From Malania oleifera (Eukaryota > Streptophyta > Magnoliopsida > Santalales > Ximeniaceae), in contig NC_080422.1 in assembly GCF_029873635.1 (NCBI RefSeq), positions 5,126,001-5,190,000 of the forward strand: 64,000 nucleotides of DNA, read 5' to 3'. The notes beneath the pieces are model-generated. The model was not told the origin of the DNA and searched no databases. It saw nothing but the letters and a program-made list of their open reading frames with translations. Each line of letters opens with the position of its first letter. Positions within the stretch are counted from its first letter, which is position 1. The position numbers were made by a program, and so were the translations under genes. Positions 4,811 through 64,000 of the stretch are shown here, piece after piece.

Positions 4811-6870
4811 TGTTGACTTTGGTGCAATTCCAAGAGGGGGGGTGAATTGGTATTTTAAATAATTTCTCCCCTAGGTCAATTATCTAGCACTAGTATTTCA
4901 CAATCCTAGGGTCAATTTAGAGCAAATGATAAAGTAAACCAATAAATGCATTTGTAATTTAAATTATACAATTAAATCAACCAAGCATGCACAGAAAAGC
5001 GAGTAAAGTAAAAATAACACCGAATATGTTATCGAGGTTCGGAAAAAGTGTCTACGTCCCCGCCTCAGCTCGGAAGCCTGAGGATTACCACTATTGCTTA
5101 CTTAATAGGTGGAGTGGCACCGTTTACAATCAAGTCAAATTTTCAGAGCTAACCTCAACCTTTACAAACTCTTCTTACGGGGTGGAGAAGGCCCTACCGA
5201 TCCTTACGGGCTAGATCAAACCCTCTCAGGCCACGCCTGGAATATAATCAATGAATATGAAATTTTGCGTACAATTTAAGCTCTTCTACACAAGCATATA
5301 AGTATCACAATACAGTCCAAATAAATATGCACTCACAAATGATATGGATTTAATGCTCAAGTGAGATTTGCTAAAACACTATATCAGCTCTCAATAACAA
5401 TGTATATATGTGTGTATACTTGAGAGAGATTACCTTTGATTCAAGACAAATAAAATCAATATATATCAAAGGAACTTTGAATCTTAAAGAGAAAATCTCA
5501 ACACAATATTTTTCAATATAAGCACAACCGAGATTTAGGGATCAAGCTTGCTTAAAAATAATTTATCAAATAGTGCAAGCAAGCTTTCGAATCTGGTAAT
5601 GAAGATGCCAAGACTCAGAAGCTAAAAAGAGTGTTTCTCAAATAATATTTATCAATCAAATATATTGAAAAAAACCCTAGCTTTACTCTCTAAGAAAACT
5701 ATCAAACAATGCAATACAATGAAAGTAAAAAGTTTCAAGAGCAATATATGTAACCTCACACAAGTGAGAATCAAACTCACTTTAACTTGCAATTAGTTTG
5801 CAAGAAGGAGCTCAAGATAAAATATAACTCTCTGTTTTGAAAAAGATTTAGCAAGAATAAAATGAGAGTGTATTAAAAATTTGGCCTAAAAACATGAAAT
5901 ATAAGCAACATGGGCTCAAGAAAAATCATAGAGAATTTTTGCTAATTATATTTCTAATCGGTTGCTAATTTCTCCAAATGAATGGGTATATATAGATATC
6001 CTCAAAAATATTACCGTTGGGGAGATAGGGGAATTTTGGAAAATATTTAATGAATGTTAATTAAAATTAACCTTGGTTTATCGCAGTAAAAATTATGGCA
6101 ACTCGAGAGTTTCAGTCGACCATATTTGAGGTTCAATCGACCATATCACTAAGTTCGGTCGACCGTGGTATTTTTGAACTGAGGTTTTGGTTGACCGTGT
6201 TAAGGCAATTTGGAACCCTCCGAGGTTCAGTTGACTAGAGCATGTTCGGTTGACCAAATTCTGAGGTTCGGTCAACCAGGTTATTGGGAATCACCCATGT
6301 GTCAATTCGACGACTGTGCAGTGCAAGTTCATTTCAAAATGGTCGACCAAATAGTCAACAAGTTGACTCTGTTAGTTTCAGTCGATTGAAGCTTCTATGT
6401 AGGGTTGGGTTTGGTCGACCGAACACACTTAAAATGTGCATTTAAGTCCTGATTTTCATTTGAAGTCACCCCTGGTCACATAATTATAACTTCTAAGTTA
6501 TAGTGGACTTGTTATGAGGTACTTGGGGACCTAAGGTCAGTCTATGGCCTAGGCTTTTAAATTAAACCCAAAAATCTGGCATCGGTCGACTGAAGGTGAT
6601 CCCTAAGGTCATTCTATGGTCTTTGAGTATTAAACCCTATCAAGCATACAGATGCATCATTACAGATCATATAAATTATTACAAACCCAAATGAATGAAA
6701 TATAAATTACAAGAATAAACAATTTGGTCTTCATTTTTCCTTCGAGTCTCCATATGCACCATATGATATTGCCAACTCATGCAAGACTAATTTTGTGCAC
6801 AAACTTGGCAAACATTAAATACCAAGGTATTTGTCATAATCAAAATGGGATATGACCTATAAGGTCAACA
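4811..6870 (-). mobile_element. Solo LTR, family B (copia-like)
   Basis: The element is 2060 bp with ends TGTTGACT...GGTCAACA and a perfect 5-bp duplication GGTTG at 4806-4810 and 6871-6875. On the minus strand it starts TGTTGACCTTATAGGTCATA and ends just after a CAATTCACCCCCCTCTTGGA block, as is common at the ends of SIRE/Angela-type copia LTRs. An array of GGTCGACC-like motifs lies at 6110-6600, followed in its own direction by a TATA box. No internal region is present, so it is a solo LTR fossil left by LTR-LTR recombination. Confidence 0.88.
5987..5995 (-). promoter_or_regulatory. TATA box of family B solo LTR
   Basis: CTATATATA on the minus strand lies in the same place, relative to the GTCGACC array, as the TATA box at 27930 in the plus-oriented copy. 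Confidence 0.6.
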
Positions 6871-13699: not shown

Positions 13700-15632
13700 T
13701 GTAGTAACCCAAGGAAATTTATCAGAGCCTCGTCGATGAACACAGGGGATTCGTCGACGATGGTACATGAGGATCTCGTCAACGAAGGCACGTTCTGTCA
13801 ACGAGAAGATACCGAGAGGCTGTTTTCCAAGTTATGAATTTCGTCAACGAGGAGTAGGCATTCGTCAACGAACCTCTTTCTTGACCTCGTCGATGAGATG
13901 ATGTTGCTCGTCAACGAAGCCCAAAGTATAATTAAATAGTTCTAATTCCAGATTTTTTAGCAAAATTCTCAGCAAAATCTTCCTTTTGTCTCTCATCTAC
14001 AGTTTCTCTCCCTTCTTTCTTCGATTCTAGCTCCGTTAGTCTCTAGATCGACGATCTGAGGCCACCACGACGCTCCAGAGAAAGTTCTCTCCAAGTCTAT
14101 CAGAGCGGATCGTTGGTGGGACGAAGTTGAATTTCATCTCAAATTCAGGGTAAGGTCTTTTATACAATATTTGGCTTTCGAGCAGTTGTAGGAAATGTAG
14201 TAGTCAAAGAAATAGTGATATTTTGTTCTGGTACATGTTATTTTCAGAGTGTTGAGTGGGGAACCCTGCGGGTGTAGGACCCGTCACAATAGGAGATTTA
14301 AACAGGAATCAGGTAAGGGAAATATGATGTGCTAGGCAATTCTATTATGATTCAGTACAATTCATATGTTTTTAGCAAATTATTATTCAGACCATAATAT
14401 ACAGTTTTCAGAACCTGATAATATTGATATTTAGTTGTATGGCATGAGTTTAATATTATATTAGAACAGGGTTTATATAATTTTCATAATACCATGATTT
14501 ACAGTATACGTACAGAAACTTGAATTTGACACTATTTTCAGAATACTATGATATACACACCTCAGAACCATAACATTTAATTACTACAGTTAGTCAGATA
14601 TTTCAGTTATTCAGTTATGCAGATATCTCAGATATTCAGTTATTACAGTTTATTCAGATCAGTTTATATAATGTTATGATTATTTTAGTTGTTACAAAAT
14701 TATCGTATAAGCAGTATTTTAGAAGTACCAGTTACTTATATATAATATCAGACCCTGATGGACCATATTCAACCAGCAGAGCACGATACCGCAGCTATAT
14801 TCAGTTCAGAGTGCAACCACTACTTAGATAGTATGTGGTATTCAGAAGTCGATCATGCCTATGTTGTGAACAGCCTTCCCATCAGATATAGGTTGAGGGA
14901 GCCAATCTGATTGTTGGAGTTTCAATTAACTTACCCTGGTCGACTAGCTAGGTTAGGTCCCGCCTTTGGGCCGCACAACCCTGTCATGAGGGGTTAAATC
15001 ATGACTTTCAGTCATCCATCCAGGGAATTTTCTTAATTATTATATATATATATATATATATATATGTATGCTCAGATTTACAAAAAATAGTCATACCTAT
15101 AGATATTAGCAGTATTATGAATAAACATTCAGGAAAATCAGTTTATGTTAAGCAACATAGGTATAATTTATATTGCAACAGGTATACCGGTTTGACTCAA
15201 CTTTGTTATTTATGGTATTTTCTAAGTCAGATTTTACTAACATGTAGCTCACTTGCCACACACTAATAATATCATATTTCGTCTTACTGAGCGTCGTCTC
15301 ATCCCAATAAATTGACATTTTTCAAGTGATCCAATTAGGCGAGCAGATCAGGCTGGCAGATAGAGGGTGTTACAATGCAGGTCTATCAGTAGGGTGAGTC
15401 TTTTGGGGAAGGGAGTACTGTTGTGTAGCCTAGTTCAGTTATATACGTGTAATTTGAGAATAATCTAGCGCTCTGGTATTGTATTATATATATGTGATTG
15501 TGGATTTATGTGAATTCAACTTCTCGCTGCTTAGGCTGTAGTTAGATTTAAATTAACAGGTATCAGAGCAGTGTAAACTTCAGTTTATATGTATATTTAA
15601 AATTTTTTAAAAAAAATTAGCAAGTCGTTACA
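13700..15632 (+). mobile_element. Solo LTR family A, copy B (plus orientation)
   Basis: It is 1933 bp, TGTAGTAACCC...AAGTCGTTACA, with a perfect duplication TTAAA at 13695-13699 and 15633-15637. It was inserted head-to-head into copy A of its own family, so 12.1-15.6 kb looks like a large inverted repeat. Eight GTCGAC-type palindromes at 13732-13915 precede a TATA-like site at about 13930. Many of its sites have decayed to GTCAAC, as CpG deamination would produce. Confidence 0.87.
13732..13915 (+). promoter_or_regulatory. GTCGAC palindrome array (copy B)
   Basis: Sites start at 13732, 13753, 13778, 13797, 13843, 13864, 13889 and 13910, giving spacings of 21, 25, 19, 46, 21, 25 and 21 bp. Five of the eight read GTCAAC. 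The array ends about 20 bp before the TATA-like site. Confidence 0.7.
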
Positions 15633-18024: not shown

Positions 18025-18034
18025 ACCTGCACTC

Positions 18035-18218
18035 GTCGACGACCCAAGTCACTTCGTCGACGAGGCCATAAAGGAAGTTCGTCGATGAACACCTATTCCT
18101 CGTCGACGAAATTCATAACTAAAAATAGTCTCTCGGTATCTTCTCGTCGACGAGACACGTGTCTCCGTCGACGACCCCAATAAGCCACTTCGTCGATGAA
18201 CGCTTCACGTTCGTCGAC
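18035..18218 (-). promoter_or_regulatory. GTCGAC palindrome array (copy C)
   Basis: Sites start at 18035, 18056, 18081, 18102, 18146, 18167, 18192 and 18213. Spacings are 21, 25, 21, 44, 21, 25 and 21 bp, that is two tetrads exactly 111 bp apart. Confidence 0.75.
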
Positions 18219-18475
18219 AGGGACCTGTTGTGACCCCCTTTTATAATTTCTTTTTTCCTCTTTCTTTTATTATTTAAATACCGTAATTCTTTAGGTCTCT
18301 ATAATATATATATATATAATATTATATTATATTATATTATATCAATTAATTAATAATTATTATTTAATTAATTAAATAATTTTTTTTCCCCGGGTTACTA
18401 CACAAGACCCAATGGGCTTAAACTTTTGGCTCAAGTCGGTGCTTACCCATGTATATCAAGCATACCTGTGGACTT

Positions 18476-24545: not shown

Positions 24546-25705
24546 TAAATAAAAAGGAGATCATCTTAAGTCATGTAATGAGTAGTTTTCTATTTATCTA
24601 TTTTTTTCTTGAACAAAATGGACTTTATCTATTTTTCATTATCTTCTTATTATTGCTTATATTAGGAAAATCTTGTCGATATTTGTATTTGTCAAAATAA
24701 ATTTTGGCTCTAAACTATACATGGGTATCTCTCATCCATATTTAGAAACACTGTTTTCATGATTTGAACATGTGACCTTTAACGATCACAATGTATATAT
24801 ATAAATAAATGTATGTATAATTTTTGTAACATCTCTCATTAAAATATAACAAAATAAATCAAATGGTCAACTCGAACCCATGGATAGCGGGGACACCTGT
24901 CATACACAGCGGAAAACCCAGCAACAGTACACATAAAAATCCATACATCCATCCATAAAACATAATACTAGAGCTTTCTATTAACGTCAATATACTGTTC
25001 ATATGTACAATCTCCAAAAGTCAAAATAACACTAGGATTATGCAAAAAAAATCTCCTAGTCCTAGCTCAGGGCTTACCCTTCTAGTAGGGAAGCACCAAT
25101 CACTCAGCGGCGGCCCTGACCAGCCGGTCTCTCTGGGTTTCCTGAAAAATTTAATAATGTTGGGGGTAAAACACTTCTCAGTAAGGGAAAATAAATTAAA
25201 TACAACTGTATGGCAACATGAATATTTAAAGTGCTTATACATATACAGTACAATTCATAACTCTGGAAATAATCATAATATCATACTGGATAATCATGTA
25301 ATTTCATATTCGTTAATAAATCACAACATACATAAACATCTGTTATAACTCGTAATACTAAAAATCAATTCAGGATGAATAGCTAGCTAATGTCATGTAT
25401 TACCCCCCATGACGGGTTGTGCAACCCGAAGGCGGGACCCGACAATGGCTGGCCGACCACTACCGAATCAACTATGTCTGTAAGTGCGATGGGCCAGCCG
25501 CACCCTGGTCCGAACTGCCAAGTGGATGTCTACACTCTACTGAAAGCCTCATCGACTATCCATCTCCCATTCCCTTGTGGGACGGTAGCACTAATAAGGC
25601 ATCGTGTCAAAATCAACCCATAGCTACGGTACCGAGCTCCTAATCTAAACTAAACTAACATCCTGGTTGCAATAACGTATAATACATGAACATACGTAAC
25701 ATCCA

Positions 25706-25910
25706 CACGGCCTCGTGCCGAAAGCATAGATACGGCCTCGCGCCGCAATCATACGTATGGCCTCGTGCCAAAATCATAGTAAATATATATATATATATAT
25801 ATATGGCCTCGCGCCAATAACATCAATATGGCCTCGTGCCCAAAACACAATAATACGGCCTTGCGCCGATAGCATAATAATACGGCCTCACGCCAAATAC
25901 ATTTCAGGTA
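25706..25910. repeat. Tandem array of a 25-30-bp GGCCTCGTGCC unit
   Basis: Seven to eight units carry TACGGCCTCGCGCCGA or close variants, interrupted by a (TA)n tract at about 25782-25804. A degraded counterpart with TACGCCAGTAT-type words is at about 17250-17345 in copy C. Confidence 0.8.
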
Positions 25911-26642
25911 TTTACATTTGAAAATAACTCATTTATCATATATTCGTCAACTCAATATAATATAACCCATCTATCCAAAATACCTGAAAATGTGTTTTAC
26001 TCGTAAAAGCATTCATATCTTATCTCACTTCACGTAAAATAATATTCATGCCACACATGCTCTATTAAAAGTCATACTTCATATTTTAAAATCGTGATTT
26101 CGTGACATCTTATACATACATATGTACACTTTAAGCATCATAGCAGTATTTTCCAAATCATACATTACATTCATAATAAACAAATATATCATATGTTTTT
26201 TCTGAAAATAAATCTTCTCATAATCAATAATAGTTTGTATGGAAAAGAACTGCTTTAGTTTACTCCCTTATCTGGCTACTGAGAAAGCCCCTACAATTTC
26301 CTAGCCTGACCCCCGTAGGATTTCCTACTCAATACCCTGAAACTCAAAACTTCCAGTATTAAACCTCAATATTTTCATGCATATATCAATTTCTCTAACT
26401 ACCATAAAGTCTAATTTGGCTTAAAAAGTCTTACCTCAACTCAGGGATGATTTTCAACTTCGTTTTCCCGATGATCCGCTCCTGCAAACTTGCATGGAAC
26501 TTCGCCAGGAGCATCGTGGTAGCCTCAGATCTTCAATCCGACGTAAAACTAGCCCAAAATTGAAGAGAGAGAGTGAGAGAGCCGAAGAGGAGAGAGAGGA
26601 GACAGAGAGGAGCGTGAAAAATGAAATAAAAATCTGATTTTT

Positions 26643-26653
26643 CATATTTATAG
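26643..26653 (-). promoter_or_regulatory. TATA box of solo LTR family A
   Basis: CTATAAATATG on the minus strand, directly downstream of the palindrome array and followed by a CT-rich leader. Confidence 0.65.
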
Positions 26654-26665
26654 GCGGCGGAATTT

Positions 26666-26845
26666 GTCGACGAGATCCTGTGTTCGTCGACGAGTCCTTC
26701 ACAAATTTCGTCGACGAGGCCCTGTATTCGTCGACGAAATTCAGGCTGCCTCAGAACCCCTCTCGGTATTTTCTCGTCGACGAAGCCCTGTGTTCGTCGA
26801 CGAAATCTTTAAAGCCTTCGTCGACGAAACCCTGTGTTCGTCGAT
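26666..26845 (-). promoter_or_regulatory. GTCGAC palindrome array, two tetrads
   Basis: Sites start at 26666, 26686, 26710, 26730, 26776, 26796, 26820 and 26840. Spacings are 20, 24, 20, 46, 20, 24 and 20 bp, so the second tetrad is the first shifted by exactly 110 bp. Most sites read TTCGTCGACGAA or a one-base variant, and pairs are joined by CCCTGTGTTC-like linkers. Confidence 0.8.
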
Positions 26846-27424
26846 GAAGCTTGGCAGCTTCCCTTCTTTTCCCTTTTTCAAATTTTCCTTTCTTTATTAT
26901 TTAAATTTCATTTAAAAATTCAGGTCGTTACAATTTTAATCAAGCTAATTAAAAATTTTTAAAAGAAACCATCAAGTGGAACCAATATTTTGTTTCTTTG
27001 CTCATATTTGTTGGCATTTTGAATCTAATCCCTATTTTAATGCTGACAAAGTACAAGTTATCTTATGTGTGTTTAAGTATGCGAACAGGTCTTGATTTCA
27101 GCACACATAAGAACAAGGAACTTGAAAGTCAGAAGAAACTCCAAGATCATATGTATCTGACGCATTTCATGAAGACACACGAGTAAGAAAATTGAAGACA
27201 TTTGTTCTTATTGTAAAATGCATTCTGTTTTATATTTTGAGTCTGTAATAATTGCATGACATGCATGATGTGAATGACAAGCTAAAAGACTACCGTAGCT
27301 GACCTTAGGACACAAAATATTTAATGAAAAAATCCCTCACTTAAAAACTATACTCATACATGTAAGGGGAAATATCATTAAGGTCAAAATCAGGGGCAAA
27401 ATAGGAATTTCACTTGCCTCGATC

Positions 27425-27815
27425 GACCGAACTGAGAAGTTGACCAAAGTCAAAGCTTCGGTTGACCGAACCCTTGGCGCTATAAATGCTTTGGTTGACC
27501 GAACCAATCAGAAGTCAACATGTTAACTTCGCCCAGTCAACTGTTCTGAATTAAACATATCGTTCTTGGTCGACCAAATCATAAAGTGTCTAATACCCTC
27601 AACGACTTGGTCGACCAAATGTGTAGTTCAAATTAGGTTCGGTCGACCGAACCTAGTTGAGTAGTCTACCGACCTTGTCTTGGTCGACCGAACCCATGAA
27701 GGGGTTCAAAATCGCCTTGAGACGGTCAACCAAATCCCTAGTTCAAAATTGTCACTGTTGACCTAACTTATTAAGGTGGTCGACAGAACCTTGAATATGG
27801 TTGACCGAACCTCTC
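27425..27815 (+). promoter_or_regulatory. Array of GGTCGACCGAAC-type motifs
   Basis: More than ten sites read GGTCGACC, GGTTGACC or GGTCAACC, mostly followed by GAAC or AAAT, with irregular spacing of about 25-55 bp. The GGTTGACC forms contain the W-box core TTGACC bound by WRKY factors, which is known for plants; whether they are bound here is inference. Confidence 0.65.
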
Positions 27816-61488: not shown

Positions 61489-61560
61489 GTCAACAAGTGG
61501 ACAGAATCGTCGACGATCGGCCTTCTTTGGCTCGTCGACAAGTACCCTATTCTCGTCGAC
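61489..61560 (+). promoter_or_regulatory. GTCGAC tetrad in the copia LTR
   Basis: Sites start at 61489 (GTCAAC), 61509, 61534 and 61555 (GTCGAC), giving spacings of 20, 25 and 21 bp, the same tetrad geometry as in LTR family A. A TATA-like GATATATATG follows at about 61650. Confidence 0.65.
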
Positions 61561-61969
61561 AAGTGGACACTGGGCTGCGAGAAAGAATTTAAATTTTGAA
61601 TTTGAACGTTGCAGTCGTTGGGTATTCGGAGGGAAACGTCCGAGGGGTTGATATATATGTCATTCTGGGCATATTTCAACATGTAAAAAAGTAAAAGAGG
61701 GTGAGAGAAAGAGAGAAGATCATTGTATTGTGAGACTTTGATTTTCATAGTGAATCTCTTATCGATTGCTCCCATGGATGTAGGCTTTACCGAACCATGT
61801 AATTCCTGGTGTCGTTGCCTTTATTATTACTCTCTTTATATTGCAATGATTGTGGAATGTTTTCTTTTTATCACTATTTTGTTTGTTGCAAGTATGTTTG
61901 TGTGATTTTTATATAATGTTCATTCCGCTGCGCATTGTTGGGAGAGGCCGCCCTTATTTTTTACAACAA

Positions 61970-63818: not shown

Positions 63819-64000
63819 GTAAGAACCCGACCTGATAATTTTGAATTGAAATAAATAAGAAAATGGGGAGGAATTTAAAAAGGAAAAATCAGCAGCGCTT
63901 GTTGACGAGGCTCCTTCTATTGTCGACGAAGTCCCTTCTATAGCTTGGCGGCAAAATTCAGAGGTTCGTCGACAAGAGGATGCCAAGGGATTTTGGGAAT
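63819..64000 (+). mobile_element. Start of an LTR family A copy, cut by window end
   Basis: It starts TGTAAGAACCCGACCTG, and the next 80 bp follow the start of the solo LTR at 24825 read on its own strand. GTTGAC/GTCGAC sites at 63901, 63922 and 63968 are 21 and 46 bp apart, as expected for the middle of the array. Confidence 0.65.

Follow-up and report, generated by a model that had tools for sequence, protein, structure and literature searches.

A conserved array of eight GTCGAC-centred palindromes in the U3 region of chromovirus LTRs of Malania oleifera

To our knowledge, regulatory sites in the U3 region have been described for few plant retrotransposons, and then as one or a few boxes. 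Tnt1 of tobacco is a Ty1/Copia element whose BII boxes lie in tandem, are partly palindromic and vary in number; Rider of tomato is a Copia element. According to the accessible part of the Tnt1 source, the BII boxes of its U3 bind defence-induced DNA-binding factors (PMC3316501). In the LTR of Rider, U3 contains a CBF site and R an ABRE-like one, and some Rider lineages have a shortened U3, as stated in the available portion of that paper (PMC6762207). In VANDAL transposons, a short motif arrayed in noncoding DNA is read by the sequence-specific protein VANC, which is encoded by the element itself; its motifs share one orientation and expand and contract in number (PMC5735166, available in part).

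Here, we describe an array of eight palindromes found in the window, a stretch of 64,000 nucleotides of the M. oleifera genome. It resembles Tnt1, which has several boxes in its LTR promoter (PMC3316501, accessible part), and its sites are repeated between the LTR start and the TATA box and are conserved beyond the neighbouring LTR. The differences are that it consists of eight palindromes, all strict and set in a frozen layout, and that it belongs to a Ty3/Gypsy chromovirus. Rider and other stress-responsive LTR promoters likewise contain motifs of host transcription factors, but those of Rider are single and predicted, and the part of its description at hand holds no comparable array (PMC6762207). 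Unlike the VANC/VANDAL system, the chromovirus shows no extra gene in the pieces searched, its sites are palindromic and their spacing is largely frozen.

A search of open titles and the beginnings of abstracts, with subscription papers and preprints outside its scope, found no description of the array, and the matches listed for the motif words (titles and abstract starts) included no transposon paper. The accessible part of PMC12786077 contains nothing on it. Here, eight palindromes retain both their sequence and their layout, in very many copies, across lineages whose LTRs are otherwise nearly unalignable.

The array and its carrier element

The preliminary description had reported eight GTCGAC words in the window (Table 1). 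All eight places were right; seven of the words are exact (starting at 26666, 26686, 26710, 26730, 26776, 26796 and 26820), and the one at 26840 reads GTCGAT, one CpG transition away from GTCGAC. Pattern search bore out the spacing given, 20-24-20-46-20-24-20, and the second tetrad is indeed the first shifted by 110 bp, the two forming a 73-nt direct repeat of 79% identity. Most sites had been called the 12-mer or one base off, and this agrees with the counts: TTCGTCGACGAA is exact at three of the eight sites, one off at four and two off at one. In the whole 64-kb window GTCGAC occurs 34 times, against an expectation of 2.4.

The array had also been placed in U3, directly upstream of a TATA box, and the order on the minus strand (LTR terminus, array, TATA) is the same. 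Since TGTAACGA (26932), the array and TATAAATA (26652) follow one another on this strand, the array occupies most of U3. The TATA box is present, but lies 10 bp from the nearest 12-mer and not about 15 as first thought. The suggestion of a common helix face holds for pairs 20–21 bp apart, for which it was made; distances of 24–25, 44–46 and 110 bp are not whole 10.5-bp turns.

Two diverged relatives of the array, whose aligned LTR parts are 65–68% identical, are found in the same window. More TCGTCGACGA-type sites are present at 856–935, 61506–61563 and 63919–63976; the spacings at 61506 and 63919 (25, 21 and 46 bp) agree with those of the array, and these sites are probably remnants. Short tandem repeats (25–27 bp, CGGCCTCG core) occupy 25707–25901, within the element and downstream of the promoter.

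Table 1. Features of the array, its carrier element and related arrays in the window
Feature	Position	Strand	Basis
LTR 5' terminus TGTAACGA..., start of U3	26925..26932	-	BLAST alignment boundary against two-LTR element L039; well-conserved columns in 29 arrays
Palindrome site 1 (LTR sense), TTCATCGACGAA; GTCGAT on +	26837..26848	-	sequence, pattern search
Palindrome site 2, exact TTCGTCGACGAA	26817..26828	-	sequence, pattern search
Palindrome site 3, exact TTCGTCGACGAA	26793..26804	-	sequence, pattern search
Palindrome site 4, one off	26773..26784	-	sequence, pattern search
ATACCGAGAGG, asymmetric mid-spacer word, also conserved	26759..26769	-	29-array alignment, deepest pairs
Palindrome site 5, exact TTCGTCGACGAA	26727..26738	-	sequence, pattern search
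Palindrome site 6, one off	26707..26718	-	sequence, pattern search
Palindrome site 7, one off	26683..26694	-	sequence, pattern search
Last spacer before TATA; ACGTG[G/T]C absent from window copy	26675..26682	-	sequence
Palindrome site 8, two off	26663..26674	-	sequence, pattern search
TATA box TATAAATA	26645..26652	-	direct reading; conserved columns in 29 arrays
LTR and adjoining internal DNA aligning to L039 at 85%	24835..26932	-	BLAST alignment
Diverged array relative, 21-25-21-44-21-25-21; 7 of 8 sites within three mismatches	13729..13918	+	pattern search, alignment
Diverged array relative, 21-25-21-44-21-25-21; 8 of 8 sites within three mismatches	18032..18221	-	pattern search, alignment
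Second-family array, T[T/C]GGTCGACC[A/G]A palindromes, other geometry	27419..27808	+	sequence, pattern search
Second-family array, T[T/C]GGTCGACC[A/G]A palindromes	about 6155-6593	-	pattern search

The element that carries the array is a Ty3/Gypsy chromovirus LTR retrotransposon. No second LTR of comparable identity accompanies the window copy within the window. Its relative L039 has two LTR pieces of about 760 bp each, 93.2% identical and about 7,070 bp apart, and between them the Pfam domains Retrotrans_gag, zinc knuckle, RVP_2, RVT_1, RNase H, Integrase_H2C2 and SH3_Tf2-1; the integrase core gave no match in the L039 pieces searched. A chromodomain (PF00385, cut-off 25.1 bits) was detected in an array-less relative (1.2e-6, 28.7 bits) and, under the cut-off, in an array-bearing one (3e-4, 21.1 bits). 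As a guess, the element may belong to the Tekay/Del lineage. Among the pieces searched only gag-pol domains were found, and no extra element-encoded protein.

Conservation of the sites and of their spacing

The array was compared with copies from elsewhere in the genome. Exact palindromes on contig C1 yielded 27 loci, of which L001–L008 were picked automatically and L040–L058 by hand from 100 listed places, with a leaning toward places with several clustered matches. L007 had no group of four sites and was left out; the others and the three window arrays make a set of 29, which leans to intact sites because it was sampled through the palindrome. The register is kept in most of these arrays. 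Sites are missing in L006, L052 and L054–L057 and extra in L047 and L058, and some arrays, such as L058, seem to have gained sites. Mean information content in this set is 1.65 bits for the 10-mers, 1.91 for their non-CpG positions and 0.82 for the spacers, and when the comb of sites is tried at 233 offsets, the true one gives the highest score. A TATA-like word, under a loose pattern, lies 7–20 bp past site 8 in 20 of the 29 arrays and elsewhere in two; the same pattern finds none in the remaining seven.

Enough aligned columns for pairwise comparison were available for 398 of the 406 array pairs. In the deepest 111, whose downstream LTRs are less than 45% identical, identity amounts to 97.7% at the non-CpG site positions and 85% at all ten, against 38% for the spacers; upstream U3 stands at 50%. 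The mid-array word ATACCGAGAGG reaches 68%, against 38% for other spacer columns. It may be a ninth, asymmetric site.

A blind set was fetched by the integrase C-terminus alone (best 30 of 150 scored, from 35,032 candidates) and ranked by its likeness to a single query with the array, whose own element is L059. The array was present in the same geometry at 15 of these 30 loci, L059 included, in some cases with one or two sites beyond three mismatches. When the 29 arrays and the 15 blind ones are taken together, 23 of 44 keep a strict register in which each of the eight sites has at most three mismatches. In the blind arrays, a single non-CpG core position of 464 is altered (four of the 120 sites had gaps and were excluded). 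Eighteen rows, made up of these 15 and the three window arrays, give 1.68 bits for sites, 1.96 for non-CpG site positions and 1.40 for spacers; the smaller contrast between site and spacer goes with the closer relatedness of the blind arrays, which are less diverged than the set of 29. In the element's own family (30 rows: 29 of 40 scored copies and the window), A/T columns deviate at 6 of 960 positions in sites and 46 of 1350 in spacers (Fisher p 2.7e-6, an optimistic value because the copies share ancestry, as are the other p-values for this family), and at 184 of 4040 in R and 128 of 1913 in upstream U3. CpG positions deviate less in sites (157/1440) than elsewhere (207/1259).

At the scale of the 1.49 Gb genome, TTCGTCGACGAA occurs 37,861 times and its reversed control 67 times, and the pair TCGTCGACGA-N(2-32)-TCGTCGACGA 20,830 times against none for the control. 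Pair spacings of 12–42 bp were permitted, and all 83 close pairs of the 10-mer core among the matches listed, which cover approximately the first 3 Mb of contig C1, fall at 19–21 or 24–26 bp: 19 (8 pairs), 20 (30), 21 (20), 24 (18), 25 (6) and 26 (1). Because the genome holds 37,861 exact 12-mers and the palindrome-blind sample has the exact 12-mer at 23 of its 120 sites, the number of chromovirus arrays may be put at roughly 25,000, a crude extrapolation that counts every exact 12-mer as part of such an array.

These data bear on whether the array is an ordinary tandem duplication without function. Duplication did build it in the first place, given the shifted second tetrad and the likeness of spacers 1, 3 and 5 within arrays (identity 0.54–0.67, against 0.46–0.59 across arrays). 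As an account of its present state, duplication is very improbable: while spacers fall to 38% identity, non-CpG site positions stay at 97.7% and the spacing is unchanged, and in the own family the rate of change in A/T columns is about five times lower for sites than for spacers. The preliminary description had named random spacing, or conservation no higher than in neighbouring LTR sequence, as the mark of such a duplication. In this one genome, the listed pairs keep a fixed spacing, and conservation is far higher in the palindromes than in adjoining LTR sequence, in the set of 29 and in the own-family rows alike. Its statement that the array is not a passive repeat is thus upheld by fixed pair spacing and by palindrome conservation beyond the adjacent LTR, and we rejected a passive tandem repeat, site conservation being far above that of the spacers. 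Judged by these patterns in the DNA, the U3 array is real and under selection.

The way in which sites decay is informative about what may recognize them. The 29 arrays offer 221 aligned sites, in whose cores CpG transitions account for 151 changes and all other kinds for 24; the two half-sites decay alike and the site edges are mostly T/C and A/G. A two-fold-symmetric recognition site fits these data. The pattern also fits the decay of inserted copies as presumably methylated CpG. Covariation between the edges within a site had no clear support (121 against 118.3 in a pooled shuffle and 113.2 in a site-specific one, p 0.05).

The U3 also stands at the 3' end of the transcript, where sites could pair 1:8, 2:7, 3:6 and 4:5 into one long hairpin serving RNA processing, export, packaging or small-RNA production. 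Folding of the window array indeed gives this nested structure at -81.5 kcal/mol, compared with -59.3 kcal/mol for shuffled sequences (z -4.8), but good folding is expected of any array of identical palindromes, and a hairpin does not require individual sites to be palindromic. The spacing is mirror-symmetric, and across 23 arrays spacing lengths correlate slightly better in mirror order (pairing spacings 1-7 and 3-5; 0.28, 0.60, 0.47) than in duplication order (1-5 and 3-7; 0.00, 0.60, 0.15). Relative to comparisons across arrays, complementarity is in excess for spacers 2 and 6 (0.566 against 0.523, p 0.007) but not for spacers 1 and 7 (0.365 against 0.375) or 3 and 5 (0.398 against 0.449). 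Likewise, the 20-bp pairs have complementary outer edge bases in 72 of 108 cases, with 62.4 expected (p 0.002), but inner edge bases and 24-bp pairs give no signal. Finally, the sites decay equally at C (78 mismatches) and at G (84), although an RNA helix would be expected to tolerate changes from C to U. On balance, we regard an RNA element as improbable.

The last spacer before the TATA box contains ACGT in 14 of the 29 arrays, 13 of them as ACGTG[G/T]C, a word that we take to be of bZIP/ABRE type. The other six spacers contain ACGT in 8 of 174 cases, five of which are in spacer 3. With both strands of the genome counted, there are 4,824 instances of TGACGTGKC joined to TCGTCGACGA, against 0 for the control. 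The longer word TGACGTG[G/T]C was seen in the last spacer of L001–L005, L040, L046, L050, L051, L055, L056 and L058 and is missing from the window copy.

LTRs with other U3 sequences

A second LTR family in the window carries palindromes of related sequence in another geometry. About 120 bp downstream of its array at 27419–27808 lies TATATATA (~27930). Some 11–14 palindromes are recognizable per LTR in L089–L101; the fullest, L093, has the spacing 33-39-33-42-33-40-32-21-21-41-32-22-21, from which the others differ by missing sites. In L101, a TATATA word lies about 130 bp past the last palindrome. The genome holds 17,197 occurrences of TCGGTCGACCGA (control 47) and 4,354 of TTGGTCGACCAA (control 28). 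L101 has two LTR pieces of this family, 86.5% identical, and ten open pieces searched against Pfam contained no transposon domain; the family is apparently non-autonomous. In its deepest pair, sites are 0.673 identical and spacers 0.53, a modest contrast and much weaker than that of the chromovirus array. That the two families have converged on one protein is a conjecture.

The 15 of the 30 blind loci without an array (L062, L063, L071–L073, L075–L077, L079–L081 and L085–L088) have in common with the array element L060 the pol end (77–82%) and R/U5 (72–78%), but not the U3. The first 330 bp of their LTRs are AT-rich (13–22% G+C) in 14 of the 15; in L063 this stretch is 54% G+C and of low complexity. 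An R/U5 tree was built from 74 of 78 segments, with four duplicates and the loci lacking a long enough match left out, and its bootstrap had not fully settled. On it, the array-less loci form one clade (support 100/100), nested in array-bearing lineages with midpoint rooting. A single change of label suffices on this tree, so a single gain of the array would be possible under another root. As a related clade does without the array, the latter can be replaced, and it might even be a disadvantage.

This exchange of U3 bears on the possibility that the three palindromic CpGs of each site form an epigenetic handle, that is, a target of methylation and silencing or a dock for an anti-silencing factor and not a plain enhancer. 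The median number of CpGs in the first 330 bp of the LTR is 22 at array loci and 1 at array-less ones, and open frames have a median of 308 aa in array-less copies, which include the longest, against 174 aa in array copies (p 0.0002); both differences speak for such a handle. The longer frames suggest that the array-less clade is younger, although the sample behind these ages was ranked by its likeness to a single query. Exchange of the U3 for CpG-poor DNA would leave room for the silencing-target variant, but a pure silencing target should not be kept by selection on the element. A precedent for anti-silencing is offered by the VANC proteins of VANDAL elements, which bind repeated motifs in noncoding DNA, with loss of methylation as the outcome (PMC5735166, in the part available). 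As described in the same part of that source, VANC arrays have one orientation and a repeat number that is fluid among related copies, in contrast to the symmetric and largely frozen array seen here, and the pieces searched encode no extra protein that might act in this way. We therefore consider an epigenetic handle unlikely, if somewhat less so than an RNA element.

A candidate binding platform for a host protein

The explanation that we favour, and hold to be likely, is that the array serves in U3 as a promoter platform for a DNA-binding protein of two-fold symmetry, probably encoded by the host, and that selection on source elements maintains the array. It rests on the position of the sites, their conservation, fixed geometry and symmetry and their distribution among lineages, all of which are observed. 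The array would then be a cis-regulatory module of the Ty3/Gypsy chromovirus LTR, in which a host DNA-binding protein, most likely in dimeric form, occupies eight two-fold-symmetric sites (YTCGTCGACGAR) at set distances. The mid-array ATACCGAGAGG would belong to the same module, as would, in many lineages, the bZIP/ABRE-type site of the last spacer. Dimers 20–21 and 24–25 bp apart would assemble into a single complex beside the TATA box, and this complex would drive, or conditionally gate, transcription of the element. Source elements with damaged sites would leave fewer copies, which would keep sites and distances fixed while the spacers drift; after insertion, copies would decay chiefly by CpG transitions. 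In this scheme we infer protein binding, a dimer, cooperativity, activation over repression and a host over an element protein.

We found no transcription factor matching the palindrome. GTCGAC matches on both strands what we take to be the RYCGAC (CBFHV) cis-element; RYCGAC spans only six of the ten bases that are conserved, and from it neither the palindromic form nor the TC and GA flanks would be expected. A CpG-methylated GTCGAC acting as a W-box mimic was considered and dropped, as methylation of the W-box is reported to lower WRKY binding (PMC10152670, accessible part).

A wider reading, which we offer tentatively and think doubtful as a whole, is that of an undescribed retroelement code. 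A host protein, or a small family of them, might read GTCGAC-centred palindromes (TC-GTCGAC-GA in the chromovirus, GGTCGACC in the apparently unrelated and probably non-autonomous LTR family) as rigid lattices upstream of the TATA box. The approximately 25,000 arrays might then act as a genome-wide sink or enhancer network for this protein, and lineages that exchanged the CpG-dense lattice for a nearly CpG-free U3 might have escaped its control, or methylation, and expanded recently.

The array provides a ready natural probe for a putative DNA-binding protein. Clades with and without it, which share the rest of the LTR, constitute a natural experiment, and the array makes it possible to ask whether a CpG-dense promoter benefits or harms a plant retroelement.
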